Assembly: GCF_000004075.3 (NCBI RefSeq)
Contig: NC_026657.2
Span: 30,474,408 to 30,538,407, forward strand
Direction: 5' to 3'
Length of the DNA: 64,000 nt
From: Cucumis sativus
Lineage: Eukaryota > Streptophyta > Magnoliopsida > Cucurbitales > Cucurbitaceae
The position numbers and the translations under genes are program-made. Shown in pieces: positions 26,085 to 45,532 of the stretch. Numbering within the stretch: position 1 is the stretch's first letter; every line of letters begins with the position of its first letter. A model generated the notes under the pieces. That model made no database searches. It was not told where the DNA came from and saw only the letters and a list, made by a program, of their open reading frames with translations.

Positions 26085-32764
<6,680 letters not shown>

Positions 32765-35359
32765 TAGGGAGTGGTAGCTCTATACTGGTATTTTCTAGCT
32801 TCTGAATTCCTTTTTGTTTTCTTTTTGTTTCTTTTTTTCTTCTAAAGATATATAGTTGAGAATACATCAATGCAATGATCATTTTCATTCAGATCTTTAC
32901 CATCTTGTTTTCTCAGCAAATTTTCAATTAACATCAAATATATCTGTTGATGATATGAATGAGGCAGTGCAGTCCAAGTCCTGGCCGCTTGGCATCTCTA
33001 TATCCGCAAGCCTTTGTATTATCAAAAATCGGTCATACTAGCAAAGTGGTTTATGTTCACCATTATTTCTTTTCTCCTTGTATTTTTGCCTTAAATTTAG
33101 CTCTGGCACCAACTCGTGTTAGACAGCAACGGAGAGTTGTTTAAGATTCTCTTTTAGGTTTACGAGGGTTGTTCACTTATCTTGCGGGTCTGGTCTGGAT
33201 ATGACTATAATGATGATGTTGGATTTTGCTTCTTTTTGCTTCTATCATTTGGCCTTAGTCCCACCTTGTTTGGTTGATTAGACAAGCTTGGCATGGCAGA
33301 TATTGTTATACTTATGACAGATTTTATTGCAATAATTGTCTTCAACATTATGCGTTGTGTAATTATGAGAACGTTTCTGTTTGGATGGACATTAGACGTT
33401 AAAAAAAAAAAAAAAAGGAAAAAAAAAAAGCCAAATGATGACTCGAACGTAAAAATTCCTTTGATTCACACCCTTTGGTCGTAGAATTCTGTACCAATTA
33501 AGAAAAGCCAAATGATGACTCAAGCAAAATACATGCACCATTGTTGATCATGTGAGTATCATGATTGTTACAATTATACTTTCGTTAATTGATGCTTGCA
33601 AGTACCATCGTTTTTTTTTTTTTTTTTTTTGTGGTTTTTGCAATTCCTTTTCTTTTAAATAATTTTATGAAAGCTATGGTAAATTTTAATTAAAAAAATT
33701 GTATGCAACTTACATTTTGTTTAAGAAATTTTTTTTAAGAGTTGTTAAGGGTTGATGTTAAGAATTAAAATAAGGGGTTTTTTTAAAAATAAATAAATTA
33801 AATATCAAATTTTTTATACTTAAAAACAAAAATTCATTTGTAAATATTTTTTCTATTTCACTATTTTTGATAATTTTCTTTAAAATAAGCATAATTTAGC
33901 TTTTAAAGTTATTTTGTTTTGCTTCTTCTGCCCATTATTTACCTATCAAGCTTAATTTTAATTCTGAGAGAAAGAAAGAAATTATTGTAGATCATTGACT
34001 CGAGAGACTAATTAAGTAAATTAGGGTTGTAATATCATCTCACTCGGTTTTAGTTTACTTTCAATTGTGGTTTCGATATTAATCTCAAATTTAGTCTTTT
34101 TCTTTAATTTTTTAAAGCTTAAATCTAGTAATTTAAATTTAATTGGGTTTAAACTGTCTAAAATAATAATAATAACAATAATTTTTAGGTAAGGTGTAGC
34201 TTTAAGTGGATATATTATCAAAGTTTATAGAAGAAAGTTACTAAAAGTTAGTTGATATGGATGAGATTTGGACATTTTGGATATATATAATTCACTCGTG
34301 AGTTTATACTCAACCTAAGCTAAACTTAACTAATTTGATATTCTAATTTGATATACTTGTTTACTTTTCGAATTTGTTATTTCCACTGAAAGTAAAAAAG
34401 TAAAGTAAAATGGAGTTTTCAAATTCTTATCAACAACCGTCAAGTACTATAAAAAGAAAGGAAGTTGTTAATTTTAGAGAGTCTAATTAAGAGCTTTTCT
34501 TTAAAACCACTTCTTCTAAATCCATTTTAAGAGATGAAAATTCTGAAAAGTAGTTTTTCTCTAAATAGTAATCTAAAAGCTGTGGTTGAAAGTTATTATT
34601 GATTATTGGGTAAATCAAATTCAAATGGTTTTAGTGTTTGTTGAAAGGTTACGTGTTAAAACTGAATTGTCAAGTCTATGCTTAGTAAAACTTCTTTCTT
34701 ATTGTCTCAGTCTTACTTTTTTCAATATTGTTTTTTGTTTGTTGTTAATGTCATAATCTTACTATTCTTATGTTCCAACACCATCATCATCATCGTCATC
34801 TCTCTCCATTCTCTTATCCCCAAAAAGAAAAATGTACACTTTTTCTTCTCATTCTTTGTAGCTCCATTGACTTAGATTACTTCAGTTCGGTTCAAATTTC
34901 TCATGTAATGCTTATCTTAAAACAAGAAAGAAAAAGAACTTCTTTTGATTAGACGATATGATAAGTAAGAGATTTGATTCTTTGATGTTTGATCTTTCAG
35001 TTAATGTTCTGTAGTTTAATTTAAAATAGATGGTTGTAATTTTTTAATGGAGTAATTGAAAAATACCATCAAACTATCACTTTGTTGTTGTTATTATTTA
35101 TGAAAAGGGGGTCCTAACATCTACTTAAAGCCTTTATTTTCCTTGTAATAATAATAAAAACTTAAATATAAGATCATAGACTTGAGAAGAGACCAGAAAA
35201 GGGAAGAAGAAATGAATATAATAATAGTAATAGTAATAGTGTGTAGTAATGATAATAAATGTAAACAATATAAAACTGTATATATAAATATACGAAGAAA
35301 ACAGCAACAATTTCTTCTAGTTTAAGTATTTGGATATATACATAAAAACATATATTGAT
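32765..35359. other. PCFS4 3' region and AT-rich intergenic DNA
   Basis: The left part should contain the 3' UTR of the PCF11-like gene. Long A and T runs occur at 33401-33429 and 33611-33630. No other gene could be supported; the right end contains the PSK gene's 3' UTR (minus strand). Confidence 0.5.
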
Positions 35360-35882
35360 TCAAGGATTCTCATTTTGTGTGTAAACATAATCCAAGTGAG
35401 CTTCTAACATCATCTTCCTCTTCTCTCCTTCTTCTTCTTCTCCTACTTCTTTCTCTCCCTTTATCTACCAGAAAAAAAAAAAAAGAATTAAAATTAAAAT
35501 CCAAAGAAGGAAATTAGAAAATAAAAATAAATAAATGAAAAAGTAAAGGGTATTTAATTTACATGAGGGAAATCTGGCAATGAATCTCCTAATTGAACCA
35601 TTGATCCATAGCTGATCTTCCTGTGGGTTTCTTCTATACCTGCAAATTTTCGAGGAAAATCGAAAGGGAAACAGAAAGAAATAGTGAGAAAATAATGGAA
35701 GTTTTTTTTTTTACAAGAAAAAGAGGGAAGAAAAATTAAAAAAGGAAGGGTTTCTAGAAATGGGTTTTACCATGTTTGGATGGAGGGAAACTAGCAGAGG
35801 CAGAATGTGAAGAAAAGAGAAGAAAAATGAAGAGAAAAGAGATGAAGAAGAAGAAGAAGAAGCCATGGGAATTGTGGTTCAT
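35360..35882 (-). CDS. PSK: Phytosulfokine precursor with variant pentapeptide YVYTQ
   Basis: Precursor of a secreted, tyrosine-sulfated growth peptide perceived by LRR receptor kinases (PSKR). Three minus-strand exons: 35771-35882, 35563-35639 and 35360-35464, phases 1 and 0, with GT-AG introns and strong pyrimidine tracts; 97 aa, the usual precursor size. Residues 1-30 form a signal peptide (MNHNSHGFFFFFFISF ... HSASA). A variable segment (HRKISYGSMVQLGDSLPDFP) is followed by a Glu run, a basic RK and MMLEAHLDYVYTQNENP to the stop. The layout, with acidic stretch, basic residues, HLDY and a short tail, is that of PSK precursors (Arabidopsis PSK6 has a similar HLDYIYTQ ending). Two oddities: Val replaces Ile in the hormone, and the cysteine pair normally in the acidic segment is absent. 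The Asp before the first Tyr, needed for sulfation, is present. Confidence 0.85.
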
Positions 35883-38093
35883 TTTTCTTAATGCTGTTTC
35901 TTTTTCTCTCTTTCTTTCTTTTTTTTTTTTTTTTTTTTTGGAGGTGAAAAATGAGAGAAATGATTATTATTATTAGAAGAAGAAGAAGAAGAAGAGGGGA
36001 ATAGGTCTAATGGGAATGGAGAAAATGAAAAGAAAAAAGGAAAAAGGAAAATTAAATAGAGAGGAGAATAAAATAGAGAGATTGTGTGTTTGTTGCCTTT
36101 TTCAAGTCACATGGAGACACCAAAACAAAGGCAGTTATGGGCTTAAAAAATGCCAACAATCTTACAAATACCAATACTCTCTTCCTGGGCCATACCTCAC
36201 TTTAATTCCCTTCCTTTCTTTTTTTTATTTCTATTACTTTCTTTCCTTAAATTTAAATTAGAGAATATAATTCAAGTTCTCGTAATTTAAACGTGCATGA
36301 AAATATTAAAAAAAAAAAAAAGTTATAGAAAATTTGATATTTTATGAAAAATTTTATTTTTTGTATATGTCAATTTCATGAAAGTATGAAATTTTAATTT
36401 TTTGTATACATAAAAATTTATATAATGTATGCTCTCTACATTACATCATGTAGTGTTTGATATTTTAATTTTTTGAGCTTTTATTAACAATTTTAATTTC
36501 CACCTTAGGAGAAGTAATATCTAGCTATTATAAGCCTACTCAAAAAACAATTACCATGTCCATTAATTTAATATTATGATTTAGCACGAAAGCATAACTA
36601 ATCAAAAATCTTGAAAGAAAATAAACTTACATTGATAAAAGGATATTAATTTCGCTACTCATTTAAGTTTAATGTTTGATTCAGCAAAGTTACCAACTTT
36701 TATGATACATCTAATTCATTCTAATTGATTCATAAATTAGAAAATAATTCTCCCTCTCCAAATCTTAGGTTATGACTTTCTTTAAAATATAAATTTAAGG
36801 TAAGAACTTGAACCGAAAACTCCTTAATTATCAGATATATGCATGGGTACAATTAATTCAAACTCAGGATGAAAATTACATTATGCTTTAATCTTACTCT
36901 CATTGATTTTCTATATATTAAATGTTTCTATCACTTTTATCTGATTTAAAAATCAAACGTAACAAATGAAACGCACAAACATACAAATAATTGTTCTATT
37001 GGATTTCTATCAATAATCAATATAACAATGACGTGAAAAAAAACATAGAAACACAAATTAATTGGTTTATTGTCAAAGTAGAGAGAAAACAGAAAAAAGA
37101 TTGCTGCTTTTATGCATTTTTTTAGGGTTTCATGTGAACTTCAAAGCCAAAGGAAACCATAAAGTTGCTTTCTTTATCAAAGTTTTTTTTTATTATTACA
37201 TGTGAACTACAAACCAAAGATAAACCAAAAAGTTGTTTTTCTTTTCTATCATTTGGGATTTTACATATTTAACTATTAATCCCAATAACATTCTAATGTG
37301 TTTTCATTATATACACACAAAACAACATTAAAACAGTACATCACTAATAAAAATGGCATTTCTTAGAACAAATTCTTTTAGGTATACATAACAAATTCTT
37401 GGAACTGAATTAAAATGTTAATGTAGATAGATTAAAAACGTAATGCGTAGGAGAAGAGCACTTAATTTTTTCTATAAAATACCATAATATAATAAAATTT
37501 GAAGTTAGTGATGAATTGATTATAATTATTATAAAAGTCACATATAACTCCTCCAAATTAGTGATAATAATATTATAGTGATTAGAGAAAAAGAATAATA
37601 AAAAGAAGAAAAATAATGGTGGGATGTTAAATTAAAAATAAAGAAAAAGCTTAGTGGAAGAAGTCAAAGCTTAGGACTGCCATGGACGACAGCTGTCCGG
37701 AAAACCCCAAAATCATAAAAAAGTTTTTTTTATATAATTATTAATATTTTAAATTTTCCCTAATATTGAGAGAAATGCACGTGACCAACAATTTACAAAG
37801 CCTTTTTAATAACACTTTTATTTTAATGGGGAATTTGATTCTTTCTTTCAAAAAATCAAAACAAAACAAATCCTCTTGACAAAGCTATCAGACCTTCCAG
37901 ACTAACCCCTTTACAAATTTATAATAATAGAGCAATAAATACTAAAATTTGATTAAAGTGTGTGTGTTTGGTATAGAACTTAATTAAACAGGGGATTAGT
38001 ATGTTAAAAATGAAGCGTTTTGCAGTGTTCACATTCATAGCTGTTAGTCTGTAGAAATAAAAGTATACATAAACCATACAAGACAACAATAGT
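35883..38093. other. PSK upstream region and AT-rich intergenic DNA
   Basis: Next to the PSK start codon is a 29-base T run (35911-35939) and then a GAA microsatellite (about 35977-35995), which would be in or near its leader. Further right is AT-rich DNA without supported genes. Confidence 0.5.
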
Positions 38094-38111
38094 TTGTGTG
38101 TGTGTGTGTGT
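38094..38111. repeat. TG microsatellite
   Basis: About nine TG dinucleotides. About 80 bp further on, CATGCATGCATGCATG (38193-38208) contains overlapping RY motifs. Confidence 0.8.
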
Positions 38112-41100
38112 ATTTGGTATAGAAAGTGTTAAATTAATTTAGAAGTTTCTGACAAAAGCTATAGAAAGAAGAAGAAGATGATGCCATACATAACCATGCA
38201 TGCATGCATGTCCTTTTCTTGCCTTGGGAATTGGCTCCATTATAGAACTTTCTCACTACTCCATATATAGACTAGCTGTTCTTTTTCCAAATAATAAAAA
38301 TAAATTGCAAGATTCATTTTAAACTAATCTTCATTCTAATTAATTTCAAACAATAGCAGTACTTTGTTATATTATGTCTAAATATTTTAAATAATTTTTT
38401 TTTATTTTTATATTTTTGTAATAATTTATAATTCTTAAGAAAACCTATCCTCTCATTTTAAAAATAAAAACACCAGAATTACCAAAATATATAATAATAT
38501 TTAACTAATAATTAGTTTCAAAGTTTTGAAAGAACATTATGAATATAAAAATACTCTTCCATATTATTGATTTTTTCATTTATTGATTTATTGATTTATT
38601 GGGCATCTTTTCTCACTTTTCTTTTTCTTCACTTTTAATCTTCTTTGTACAATTATTCAAATAAAGTTTTGTTTTCTAATATTCCCATTATATTCAATTA
38701 TTCCCAAATTCCATTCTCATTTGTTACACAATTTTTCTTTGCCTACCTCTAGAAACATTTTGATTGTGACTTTGTTTTATGTCATTTTTTTGTGAAAGAT
38801 TTCAAACTTTTTTTTTTGACGTTTTTCGTTATATTCGATTCTCATTTTCTACAAGATTTTTCTTTATATACCTCTAGAGATTTTTTTATTGTGGCGCTGT
38901 ATATAAACATTTGAAAACTGATTTATGACTATAGAACTAGTCTCGTGCTAATGGTATCAATCTAAATCTAAGTTGAATGTTATCTTGGATAATATCATCG
39001 AAAATATTAATAAAACATAAACAAAACAAAACTTTCTAAACTATATATATATATAACAGTGAAAAAGTCATCTTATAAGTAGAAGATGTGATTGGGGTAT
39101 AAAAATATTTATTTTAATTCAGTGATTAAATTGATTATTTATAATTAAATAACATTACACCGCGTGTATATAAAATATATATATAGAATTTGATTTTTCT
39201 TTTTTAACTTGTGAAGAGTTTATAAATCTGTATTTGAAAAAATGGTGCAGTTTATGAAGTTCACAGTTGATTTGATATTTTGACACATAATTTCTCCACT
39301 TTCACTTCTTACACTTTTGTATATTTGAATAAAATACTTTGACCGTCCTGATTTTGGAACTAAATTATAAGTTTATCTAAATCATAGTGACCAAATTTGT
39401 AAGTTAATTTATAATATAATATAGTTGGTGTGTTATTCCAATTTATTTATATTTGATAGGGTTACTTTTTTGAACAATAGCAAGACACTAATTATTTGCA
39501 AATAGTTTTACTTTTTTTTGTTGGTACCTAATTAAATGTTTTGATTTTTGGTTTCAAAGGGTGTAGGGTCACTCACAAGTCTTGACCCCAAGACTTTGAA
39601 ACTATAAAGTGCATAATTATAATAACAACAACAACAATAATAATTTATTTTTCCCTTTTATTATTTTCTCTTAAAATATTGTTAATAGGAGACTTGTCAA
39701 TTATTTGTATACTAATGTTTCTAATTGGTTATTTTTTCATTTCAACAAAGTATTATTACATTTAGGATAAGATTTCAATTAAGCTTTTAAAAATTTGAGA
39801 GTAAATTATATATTTGTTTTTTTTAATGTATTAAAATTACACTTATTTCAATTCTTAAAAGCTAAAATATAAAATCAAAATCAACGTTAAAAATATCATA
39901 GCAAATTGATAGAAAAATAATTACAAAATATCACAAATTTATTTTCATTTAAAAGGCTTAACCCACACATATTCTATATCCCATTTCCATTTGCCCACCA
40001 GATTTGAAGAATTTTCTACCAAAGGGTATGAGTTTAATTAAAATCAAACACTCTTTCTAACATTATAAAAACAATTCAAAGTATATTAAATGAGAGTATT
40101 TCTATTGTTTAATTTTTAAAACTGAAGGAAATTGAATTTTGGCATCAGATTCTAAAGTCCGATAAATAAAAAGCTTTGGAGAAAAAAAAGTGAGATTCGA
40201 AGGAAATTATTTTAGGAACCGTCCAAATAATTTTGATGGGATTGCCTGTCTATTTTCACTCATTTTTCTTGTTCCATTTTCAAAATTTGACCCTCATTTC
40301 ATCAAAACAATATATACACTACATCCCACTCGAAAATATAGTCTCCCCTACTATAATTTGGTATAAACTATTTTAATATGATTACAAACCGGTGGAGAAA
40401 ATTGTTGCGAAAATAACAAACCCGATCTACAATGAAAGTTTTTGAATAGTTGTGTTGTAATAAAGTGTCGCAAACATCCTTTAGACTGAACTTATAATTT
40501 AACCTAAATTTTTAATTAGTTAAGTTGATAATTATTTTTAAATATTTAAATTTCATTGTTCAAATTAGAAGGAAAGAAAGAAAAGACATTGCCTTGTGTT
40601 ATATATGCCGCAAGCATATACCGATTGAATCATTTGAAAAATCCTTGCAACCATCCGAACCGGACCGAAACAAGAATTAAAGGCCCAGTATAGCTTTATG
40701 AACAACAGCCTCGATATTTGGGCCTTGGAAGACTCCGATATGGGCCGTCAGTTTTCTGGCCCGTTGAAATTTTAAAGAAGTGTTTTCTTCCCTAATACTT
40801 TTTGAGTTTTACTATACTTCAGTGTATTTACTCCAAAATTACGAATTTGATTTCATTTACTTTCAATAAATTTCAAAATCGTCTCTATAATTGGTTTTTA
40901 TGAGCGTCATCTTCATAAAATGCGAAATTTTGTTGTGGTTCATCAAATATTAACCTCATGATTTATCTTGAATTTACAATTATTAGTTTTAACCTTCATT
41001 TTAGTTTAATGTCCAATAATTCTTTACATGTTTTGAATCGATAGTTTATGTTTAGTTGAGACTAGTATCGTTGAAGTACGAGTCATCATCTCACTCTTGA

Positions 41101-43245
41101 GAGAATAAAAATAACGTCATTTAAAATTTACATATATTTTGTAATATATAAAACGGAAGAATCGAATATCTAACTTTAAAATCGTTGATACATATTTTAA
41201 GTTAAAATGTTTTCTTCAAATTATATTTTAGTTGTGGAAGATGAAGATATGATCAAAATTCATATTGTCCACTTTTAGGAATAAAATAATAAAAATTAAA
41301 TTCACGAGTCAATTATATCCACCGAAAAAGAAAAAAATGTCAATAAATGTCACAAGCCCCTCAACACGTCTTTTTTGTTTAAGTCAACTCTAAAGATTGT
41401 CCAATTGACATGTGACAAATTATTTTAAAACAATCCAATAATTTTCCCCAACAAATTAGATACGTAGGATGAATTAATTTTGTAGATGAATATGAAGTGT
41501 AAATATAATTGTATATATGATATGACCCATTGAATTGAATTATAGTTGTTTAATTTATGGACCCAATAGTAAGATAATAAAAGAATGGGTAGGGTTGAAA
41601 TTAGAATATTCCACAAAGTTGAAAAGACAGAAAATCTTGGGATGGTCTATGGGATCACGAGAGTCAATTAGTTCAACTTAACACCAACTCGTAAAGCACT
41701 TTTTTTCTTTTGGGTAGTTGATGAAAATTGAACAAGTTTGGCCTTTGACATTCAATTTAATTTTGGTTTGACTTATATACATATTATTTACTCCTTCTCC
41801 TCTCACAACCAACCCTTTCCCAACCATTTTTATCCAATAAAAACTTGTCATAAATTCAATACCTTCCTCGCAGTATGAACACTCCTATCATGCCTTCAAC
41901 AAACAAACCTTTCAAAACATAACTACGTTACCCAAACCGCTTCTTCCTACATCTCTAAAGCCTATATTATGTTCTCTCTAAAGGTTTGTTGCTAACAAAT
42001 ACAACATATGCTTTTATCTCTTTTTGGTTATATCGCATATGCGAGAGTATTGACAATCATCCACTGAGACAAAACATTGTATATTATTCTTCTCTTAAAT
42101 AGTTGTTTAGCTTCTCTCTATTCAACACGTTTTTTAGTTTTTCTATTGTAGATCATGTCATCAAGGTTTACTACATTTGTTTTCTCTATCATTTGGAATT
42201 AAGTTTGTGGTATGTAATGTACCACTTGATAAATTGCGTGACCCACCATGCTATTTTCACTTTGTGCTTAAAAATTATCGTGAATTTTTATGTTAGATGT
42301 GTTTTTCTTTTTGTCCTACACTTAAATATAAATTCGTGATCTTCAACTTTTCCATAGTTTATATGAGAATAGGTTGGGTAGGACATCTAAAAACCTAGAA
42401 GCAACTAACTAGACATAGATTAATTAATTATAACTAGTGTATGAACTCACAACACATGACTTTAGTCCATTATTTTTTAGTGAGAAGATGTGCATCACAT
42501 TCTATCCTTATTGAACTATCTTCCTTTTCACTATTGATATTCCGATAGAGTAAGTTACCAACTCCATAAATTCATCTTAATTATTCAACTATAATAAAAT
42601 AAATGACATACTCTTCAAGAAAAATAAAATGTTATAGGCAACTCCCAATTCTTGCCTCCATAATATTTGGAGATCCAAAATACTCTAATATTAATAATTA
42701 CAAATGAGATATTTTTTAGTTACAAATCAGGTGGACATATAGGTAATAATTAAACTAAAACTCTTGTTAACATCCATTAATAAGAAGGTTAGGTTTATAT
42801 TTATAGACCAAAATATATGAAATCTGTTTGATTGATCAAATCTATAAATGATTTCACTTTTTTCAAGTGGGTGTTCATCACAAAACAATATATACCGCTA
42901 AGCACAGTATACCTTCAACTTGACCTTGGTGCAACTTGGCTTTATATTTCCATTTCATTTCTACTACACTTCTCTAAAAAGTTTAATAACACTTTCATAA
43001 AGTGAACTCAAAGAAGAAGAAAAACACATTTTGGTAAAGTTTTAATAGATTTTGAAACTGTGAGTATTATAGTATTATAAATTTGCCCTTTTTGGTTAAT
43101 GGTGATCGTGCTTAGAGATCATCAAGTGGGGTGGATTCTATATCTGTTCTCTTATAATGCTACTTCTTTATATTCGCTTTCAATGTCCAACTTTTGACTT
43201 TCTCACAACCTATATTCCAATTTTGTTCTCTGTTCCGCCCAAAAT
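38112..43245. other. Gene-poor AT-rich DNA and PAN-gene promoter
   Basis: Five kilobases of AT-rich sequence. I looked for spliced small genes like the PSK gene and found none I could defend. The last few hundred bases must contain the promoter of the gene starting at 43246. Confidence 0.5.
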
Positions 43246-45532
43246 ATGCCCGGATTCACTACCACCTCGGCGGCGACTCACTCACCTCTCCTTTTATTTC
43301 TTGTTTTCATCACTCTTTTCCACTTCCCCATTTGGGTATCCACAGCGGCCACTCATCAAGAACTCGTCTCCGGTTTCAGAGCCTCACCAGACACGGCGGT
43401 TCAATCTTTCCAGCCTCTCTTAAACGATCCAACCGGAAACTTCTCGCTGGGTTTCCTCCGAGTTCAGGGGACTCAGCTCGCCGTCGTTATTCTCCACGTG
43501 ACATCGTCGGAAACAATCTGGACCGCTAATTCTTCAGTTTTCCCGGACTGGGCCGACCGAACTCTGCTCCGGTTCGATGGGGGTTTGGTACTTTCGGATA
43601 CAGATGGGAGGGTATTTTGGTCAACTGACACAGCGGGAGACCGGGCCGTTTTGTTAAACTCGTCCAATCTGCAAATTCAGCTTCGCCGTGATCCGGCGGT
43701 GGTTCTGTGGCAGAGTTTCGACTTTCCGGCGGATACCCTCGTCGAGAATCAGAATTTCAGTTCTGAAATGGTGTTAATATCTTCAAATAGATTGTTTTCG
43801 GCTCGATTGGGGGCTGATTTTATTGGACTTTATGCGGAGTTTAATGAAGGGAAGAGTCAAATTTATTATAGACACAGAGCATTGCAAGCAAAAGCTCAGG
43901 TAATTCCCGGCGGTGGACCGGTTCATCTCCTGCTGAACACTGATGGGTATCTCGGTATGTATCAAAACAGCAGCGTTCCGGTGGATTTGCAAGCCTTCAA
44001 TACTTTTCAGAAATCGGCGAATGGGTTCCTCCGGCTCCGTCTGGATTCCGACGGCAACCTCAGAGGTTTTTACTGGGAAGGTTCGTCAAAATCCATTTCA
44101 AAAATTTTTCTTCCCGTTAGTAGGCGCAATATAAAAATCACGTTAAATTATACAATATTTGTTTTTAATTGGTTTTCAGTTTCCAAATGATATTTAAAAA
44201 TTAACATTCATGGTTTAAATTTGTCACGAAGAATTAGAGAGTTGAGTTTAATCATACAATTTTCAAGCCAAATTATGCTTGTTGAACTAAAGGAATTAGA
44301 TAGGTTCATAGAACATTTTGCATGGTTTAAATTTACATTATTCAGTTACTTTACAGAACTAATAAGTACTCAATAAGTCCATAGTTTCTAATAAAATTTT
44401 GTGTTCAGTAAGGGTTTAATTTTTTTTTAAAATTATATTATGATAGGTTCCTTTTCAATGTAAAATTTTAAAAATTCATAATGCTTTTAAGTTTTAAATA
44501 CATAATTGAAAGAAACTAATATTGAAGTTTTATCCTAGTTTTACAATTAATCTATGTAATTGATGAAAATTTTGAAATACTAAAAATGATAGATAATTTA
44601 AACTTTTATAGAGTAAAAGATCAAGTTAATCGCAACTAAATTCACCTAAAATATATATTATCGATTGAAGGATAAGTGTTGGAATATAGTTAGATTATTC
44701 CAAACTAAAAAGAGAGCATGAGAATTTACTTCGAGCGTTTTCACCATTTATGAAATTAATTTTTAAGTAATGAAAAAAGCCAAGGAACCAACATAGATTC
44801 AAAAGCTTATAGAATTAAATTATATTTTGTATTATCGAACCATTAAATTTATCAACCATATTTTATCTTTCAACAGGTTCCGAATGGGTTCTAGTTTTCG
44901 AAGCAATATCCGAACAGTGTGAGCTACCGAGTCCCTGCGGTTCATACGGTTTATGCGAACCCGGTTCTGGTTGCTCATGTCTAGACAACCGGACGATTTA
45001 CACCTCCGGCCAATGTCTCCCATCGGATTCCGGCGACTTCTGCGGAGTCGGGGTAGCAAAAAGCGAGTTTTGGGTTCTGAGAAGGAGCGGAGTAGAATTA
45101 CCGTTCAAAGAACTAATGAGTTATCGAACCGGGTTCACCATGGACCAATGCGAGAGCGTTTGTGAAACCAATTGCTCTTGCTGGGGCTCGCTCTACTACA
45201 ACGCGACCGGGTTCTGCTATCTGGTCGACTACCCGGTCCGAACAGTTGTAGCGGAAGCCGACGGGACGAAAACCGGCTACTTCAAAGTCCGAAAAGCTCA
45301 GGCTAGGTCGAAATCGAAAGTGGGTCTTGAGATTGGGCTGGGAATCCTGGGCGGAATCTTTGGAATCGTGGTGGCGATTCTGGGGTTCGCGAGTTACCGG
45401 CAATGGAAGAGGAGGAGGGGGATTGGGCGGTTTTTCGAAGACGATGACGGGTCGGTATCACCCGGGCCGTATAAGGATCTTGGATCCGCGAGTTTTAAAT
45501 CAATAGAGATGGGTAGTGGGTTTAGTCGGTGA
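43246..45532 (+). CDS. PAN/B-lectin receptor-like membrane protein (At5g03700 type)
   Basis: A single-pass plasma-membrane protein built like the outside of an S-locus lectin receptor kinase but without a kinase. Two exons, 43246-44080 and 44877-45532, joined in phase 1 (WEG|SEW); 496 aa. A signal peptide occupies about the first 34 residues (SPLLLFLVFITLFHFPIWVS). A bulb-type lectin-like region follows (GNFSLGFLRV, ETIWTANSS, WQSFDFPADTL). Then come an EGF-like Cys cluster (CELPSPCGSYGLCEPGSGC), a PAN-like Cys-rich region (CESVCETNCSCWGSLYY), one transmembrane helix at about 429-451 (GLEIGLGILGGIFGIVVAIL) and a cytosolic tail of about 45 residues. It matches the Arabidopsis PAN-domain protein At5g03700 as I remember it. 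The ligand is unknown. The intron (44081-44876) is AT-rich. Confidence 0.9.

Follow-up and report, generated by a model that had tools for sequence, protein, structure and literature searches.

Our results suggest that the minus strand of the window (the whole 64,000-nucleotide stretch of cucumber DNA that was analysed) very probably carries a functional PSK-gamma-type gene for a phytosulfokine (PSK) precursor. The evidence supports a PSK precursor gene with valine at position 2 of the hormone (YVYTQ instead of YIYTQ) and without the cysteine pair that is usual in this genome's PSK-like loci.

Conceptual splicing and translation of the window joins three minus-strand exons into one 97-residue frame, ending HLDYVYTQNENP. 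The first-pass annotation had proposed exactly this precursor, and the frame is exact; its two introns, 131 and 98 nt long, both follow the GT-AG rule. The following features can be read directly in the sequence or are predicted from it:

36052..36058, minus strand: weak TATA-like element, TATTTAA, judged by consensus only and lying 176 nt before the start codon
35771..35882, minus strand: exon 1, 112 nt; encodes the signal peptide, from the start codon on, and the beginning of the pro-region, according to the translation and the best-scoring model
35793..35882, minus strand: likely signal peptide MNHNSHGFFFFFFISFLFIFLLFSSHSASA, which satisfies a simple hydrophobicity and small-x-small rule
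35640..35770, minus strand: intron 1, 131 nt, GT-AG, phase 1
35563..35639, minus strand: exon 2, 77 nt; encodes the central part of the pro-region
35465..35562, minus strand: intron 2, 98 nt, GT-AG, phase 0, with a T-rich acceptor
35360..35464, minus strand: exon 3, 105 nt including the stop; Glu-rich without cysteines, basic stretch, HLD-YVYTQ-NENP
35375..35389, minus strand: hormone codons TAT GTT TAC ACA CAA, i.e., YVYTQ, with Asp at position -1

The protein is laid out as a hydrophobic N-terminus up to SASA, a short pro-region, a Glu-rich segment, a basic stretch and then HLD-YVYTQ-NENP. The supposed cut of the signal peptide after SASA was placed by eye. In the 300 nt examined upstream of the start codon, the nearest ATG lies at -230. 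The donor of intron 2 (CAT|GTAAAT) is a weak site with a score of 1.6.

None of the exons is visible as a long open reading frame. At a 50-aa minimum, a single listed minus-strand ORF overlaps the gene; it is 51 aa long and lies in another frame. The gene also sits in a gene-poor stretch, put at 10 kb at first: about 11.1 kb separates a Pcf11-like ORF (ending at 32095) from a B-lectin ORF (starting at 43246), and the longest listed ORF wholly between the two is 90 aa. A Pfam scan of seven of the 28 listed ORFs in this stretch, one of them overlapping the B-lectin ORF, gave none that reaches a family cut-off, and there is no Rfam match in 32000-43300. On the low side, the nearest neighbour that Pfam recognises is the Pcf11-like gene (PCFS4 zinc finger) at 30116-32095 on the plus strand.

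Membership in the PSK family is clearest from the Pfam phytosulfokine profile PF06404, which has a curated cut-off of 25 bits. The spliced 97-aa protein reaches 38.8 bits (E 1.9e-9), its match running from position 2 to 87 of the 88 in the profile, and a part of the last exon, 26 residues long, by itself gives 32 bits (E 4.6e-5) in a search of the whole genome. The window locus is the weakest of the eight PF06404 loci in this genome, all of which lie above the cut-off. Two traits of the family, a YxYTx motif near the C-terminus and Asp at -1, are both present; the latter is described as highly conserved in PSK precursors (PMC10796568, available in part). With 97 aa and an N-terminal signal peptide (by the simple rule), the precursor also fits the 80-120 aa range. 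All eight paralogue loci modelled in this genome have a single phase-0 intron just before the hormone exon, and intron 2 of the window gene agrees with it in place and phase. In an alignment of six last exons the His, the Asp, both Tyr, the Thr and the last Pro are invariant. The usual C-x7-C pair upstream of the hormone is absent from the window gene.

Plain sequence searches do not find the family. As a protein query, the 97-aa product retrieves no paralogue: its five matches are its own three exons and two others at E 0.36 and 0.81. Vice versa, the last exon of a Cys-bearing paralogue misses the window gene. Hence, it is the profile, together with the motif and the shared intron, that ties the gene to the family. 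In a PDB sequence search the precursor had only four weak and irrelevant matches, with E-values of 0.8 or higher, and a pattern scan of bacterial and archaeal contigs gave 20 matches, none of them confirmed.

Could the gene be a chance match, in which low-complexity TTC/GAA repeats next to a random YVYTQ pass for a signal peptide and an acidic pro-region? Exon 1 lies on GAA/TTC-type repeats and the acidic segment on a TCT/GAA repeat, which can open reading frames cheaply, and the protein as a plain query finds no paralogue. The bare pentapeptide is common genome-wide and is weak evidence for a PSK gene: the degenerate pattern TAYRTNTAYACNCAR (YVYTQ/YIYTQ) has 324+373 matches in the genome versus 286+305 in the reversed control. 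The profile E-values of the last exon and of the protein speak against chance, and so does a splice test. For this test exon 3 was fixed and all one- and two-intron models in the 600 nt upstream were enumerated, requiring an open frame, introns of 70-300 nt and a start that resembles a signal peptide. As splice weights we used general averages rather than trained values, and the resulting ranking should be read as indicative only. In dinucleotide shuffles any such model arose in 5 of 200 cases, and an equal or better one in 0 of 200. We rejected a chance or repeat artefact on the profile scores and the shuffles, and consider a mere coincidence extremely improbable. These results place the spliced phytosulfokine gene of the first-pass annotation beyond chance.

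One could also argue that the gene is real but has other 5' exons, through a different start or splice choice, so that the first two thirds of the 97-residue protein are wrong. After all, 18 upstream models pass the rules, and the eight modelled paralogues have two coding exons; intron 1 is an extra intron without a counterpart in their coding parts. Yet under the rules used there is no two-exon model within 600 nt upstream, and the original model scores 8.4 compared to 5.0 for the next best, which has the same start, exon 1 and first acceptor. A start codon at 35866 was discarded for want of read-through from the main exon-2 acceptor; among the 12 best of the 18 models only one has this start, and it relies on a different acceptor and has a score of -2.8. 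Three exons are also normal in Rosaceae, where PSK genes have two to three according to the available part of PMC7734187. We therefore regard a wrong 5' end as quite unlikely.

The gene does not stand alone. We found nine PSK-like loci in this genome, eight by the Pfam profile and one below its cut-off by pattern. In addition to the window gene these are:

L009, C6:26157262-26157402: YVYTQ; two coding exons, phase-0 intron, signal-peptide-like start
L010, C4:94344-94460: YIYTD, then TQKP; altered at residue 5
L011, C2:17853940: YVYTC, then DNPT; open spliced frame
L012, L013, L014 and L015, C1:21382599-, 21390250-, 21439715+ and 21446980+: YVYTC, then DNPT; open spliced frames
L040, C6:27181114: YVYTQ; 74 residues, secreted-looking, ending HEDYVYTQSLP

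Each of the eight paralogues has an open frame with two coding exons and one GT-AG phase-0 intron directly before the hormone exon. L012 to L015 form an inverted array on chromosome 1 (21.38-21.45 Mb) with about 91-99% identity over the aligned parts. L040 falls below the PF06404 cut-off, its last exon scoring 13.9 bits and its spliced protein 12.6. It has a signal-peptide-like start, the family's phase-0 intron and two cysteines at a spacing other than C-x7-C, and judging from its sequence it is possibly a divergent PSK class. Over all nine loci, YVYTQ is encoded three times, YIYTD once and YVYTC five times; without the weak ninth locus, two of the remaining eight encode YVYTQ. Val at position 2 is thus the rule in this genome. 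The first-pass annotation had treated Val2 as a departure from the canonical hormone. The residue is indeed encoded, and three loci (one below the Pfam cut-off) encode YVYTQ, so the window gene is not the odd one out.

Since Val2 is common to most loci here, what distinguishes the window gene is the lack of C-x7-C. The pair is present in seven of the nine loci, the exceptions being the window gene and L040, and the 97-residue protein is the only one of the nine that has no cysteine at all. We note that the pair is usual in this genome's loci and is not named as defining in the texts consulted. The comparison with L009 is instructive. Both genes have HLDYVYTQ, a phase-0 intron before the last exon and a signal-peptide-like start. 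L009 has two coding exons, CDGVGEEEC (C-x7-C) and RRTLAAH before the hormone, in contrast to the window gene, which has none of these, and the two are 44% identical over the last exon.

In seven paralogues the cysteine pair brackets an acidic patch. The window gene has a GAA-coded Glu run in that place, which overlaps an imperfect TCT/GAA repeat (75% matching) at 35413-35451. An acidic Glu run without the usual cysteines had been noticed from the start, and this description holds. Probably the C-x7-C stretch was replaced by GAA-repeat (Glu) codons, with repeat expansion as the simplest reading.

The same observations could be taken as signs of decay, in which a former C-x7-C precursor has been overrun by GAA repeats, its frame intact by luck and with little or no expression. 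That the gene is the sole Cys-free member among nine loci, that repeats lie over exons 1 and 3 (those of exon 1 being low-complexity repeats of the GAA/TTC type) and that donor 2 is weak are all compatible with such a history. A precedent may be Arabidopsis PSK6 (YIYTH), which a review suspects to be a pseudogene (PMC11534595, available in part). Against decay, 97 codons in three exons contain no stop and begin with a signal-peptide-like start, the phase-0 intron is intact, the H-x-D-YxYTQ motif is kept, and the quality of the spliced model exceeds that of all 200 shuffles. A decaying gene is hence an unlikely explanation, and we prefer a functional PSK-gamma-type gene.

The hormone itself is not new. 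YVYTQ is already known as PSK-gamma, a name that comes from soybean (PMC10796568 and PMC9662189, in the parts available), where it is described as specific to legumes; its mature sequence, as defined in PMC9662189, is the one that the window gene encodes. According to the accessible text of PMC10796568, PSK-alpha is widespread in seed plants, only legumes encode PSK-gamma, -delta and -epsilon, and a soybean PSK-gamma gene improves seed cell growth. The idea of a variant hormone therefore stands as far as the encoded Val2 is concerned; as a novelty it does not, given that YVYTQ is already named and functionally studied in soybean. In a cucumber genome, a YVYTQ gene would contradict the claim that PSK-gamma is found in legumes only. 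The window gene resembles GmPSKgamma1/2 of soybean in YVYTQ, Asp at -1, a secreted precursor of about 80-120 aa and a hormone near the C-terminus. It differs in its lack of cysteines, in its three exons, where PMC9662189 gives two for the PSK members reported, and in its occurrence in cucumber, the soybean type being described as legume-specific.

PSK-alpha precursors (AtPSK1-5, YIYTQ) belong to the same PF06404 family and have the same layout, with Ile at position 2 where the window gene has Val. Altered pentapeptides outside legumes have a precedent, since Arabidopsis PSK6, a non-legume PSK gene, encodes YIYTH (PMC11534595, in part); there the change is at residue 5, whereas in the window gene it is at residue 2. 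Cucumber PSK genes are already annotated, at least one of them (XP_011651990.1): this gene, 'phytosulfokines 5', is reported as differentially expressed in grafted cucumber in the available portion of PMC12736856. The first-pass annotation had called the window gene hidden and likely to escape ORF-based annotation; with three exons normal for PSK genes and a cucumber member already annotated, this is at most a proposal. We found no PSK family survey of a cucurbit in the partly covered literature, and no cucumber phytosulfokine gene under the name CsPSK in the literature searched.

A more unexpected aspect of our study concerns canonical PSK-alpha. Genome-wide profile, pattern and last-exon searches found no plausible YIYTQ precursor. 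Hence, the comparison with canonical paralogues that had been proposed for the window gene fell away, as no YIYTQ paralogue was found to compare. The pattern HxDY[x]YT has 16 matches versus 9 in the reversed control, and nine of the 16 are the PSK-like loci. The context of pattern matches was judged from the local open frame only, and the seven other matches were set aside because they have no PSK-like exon. Among these were HLDYIYTY (L031), HSDYIYTL (L024) and HYDYIYTNV-stop at C2:22850419 (L023), which has no PSK-like exon before it. The short open frame of L023, QYDLLIEFHYDYIYTNV-stop, contains YIYTN, the pentapeptide of PSK-delta, probably by chance. DY[VI]YTQ has nine matches versus eight in the control; three are PSK-like, all of them YVYTQ. 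[DE]YIYTQ has ten matches versus 12 in the reversed control, none in a PSK-like open frame. With a Cys-bearing last exon as query we recovered seven loci, none of them YIYTQ.

It is very likely, judging from these searches, that a canonical PSK-alpha gene in the assembly would have been seen. The targeted sifting for YIYTQ covered matches with D or E at -1. As the last-exon query missed both the window gene and L040, a strongly diverged YIYTQ precursor with neither Asp nor Glu at -1 may have gone unseen. A PSK-alpha gene could also lie in unassembled sequence. We would put it at about an even chance that the plant has dropped PSK-alpha, its nine loci giving only YVYTQ, YIYTD and YVYTC, and that PSK-gamma is its main phytosulfokine, partly made from a precursor without the cysteine pair.

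How might the window product act? In the PSK pathway, as described in the accessible part of PMC10796568, a precursor carries a signal peptide, both tyrosines are sulfated, subtilases cleave, and the hormone binds the island domain of PSKR; Asp at -1 is given there as essential for sulfation. By analogy we infer that the window gene would be transcribed and that its precursor would enter the secretory pathway by its signal peptide. Tyrosylprotein sulfotransferase, guided by Asp at -1, would sulfate both tyrosines of D-YVYTQ, subtilases would release the pentapeptide in the apoplast, and the freed YVYTQ would bind a PSKR-type receptor. A precursor without the cysteine pair would mature without that possible disulfide.

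Receptor-like genes are present in this genome. With 150 of 802 candidates scored, six genome matches have 50-66% identity to the piece of AtPSKR1 around the island domain, and the best PSKR-like match among these 150 lies in an open frame of 1015 aa. Two PSKR1-like loci, L042 (C5:8901703) and L043 (C5:8148321), are about 0.75 Mb apart and almost identical where aligned; the open frame around one of them spans 1015 aa, that around the other only 309 aa. Where AtPSKR1 has FPFFMK, the best match has FSLFVK, with F and K kept and Val for Met (contacts matched by letter order). AtPSKR2 also has LFVK, and for this reason we draw no conclusion on receptor co-evolution from FSLFVK. Published contacts of the PSK receptor include F516, M517 and K518 (PMC11994915, available in part). 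In the same text, Ile2 is calculated to be nearly fully buried in the receptor, and I2V to cause a moderate loss of AtPSKR1 binding (+0.99 +/- 0.54 kcal/mol). Changes at residue 5 are tolerated, and Q5A and Q5K have higher activity in root assays. Given that the calculated effect of I2V is moderate, YVYTQ would be expected to act on an Arabidopsis-like receptor, possibly as a weaker ligand.

On its own, the window gene adds to the known PSK precursors a further one, whose pro-region is unusual in having no cysteine. An absence of PSK-alpha would be the wider pattern, the less expected point, and would matter more than the single gene. If true, PSK-gamma without PSK-alpha would be a natural test of how much weight Ile2 carries for the receptor, and would bear on how ligand and receptor change together. 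It would also bear on the use of synthetic PSK-alpha on cucurbit crops.
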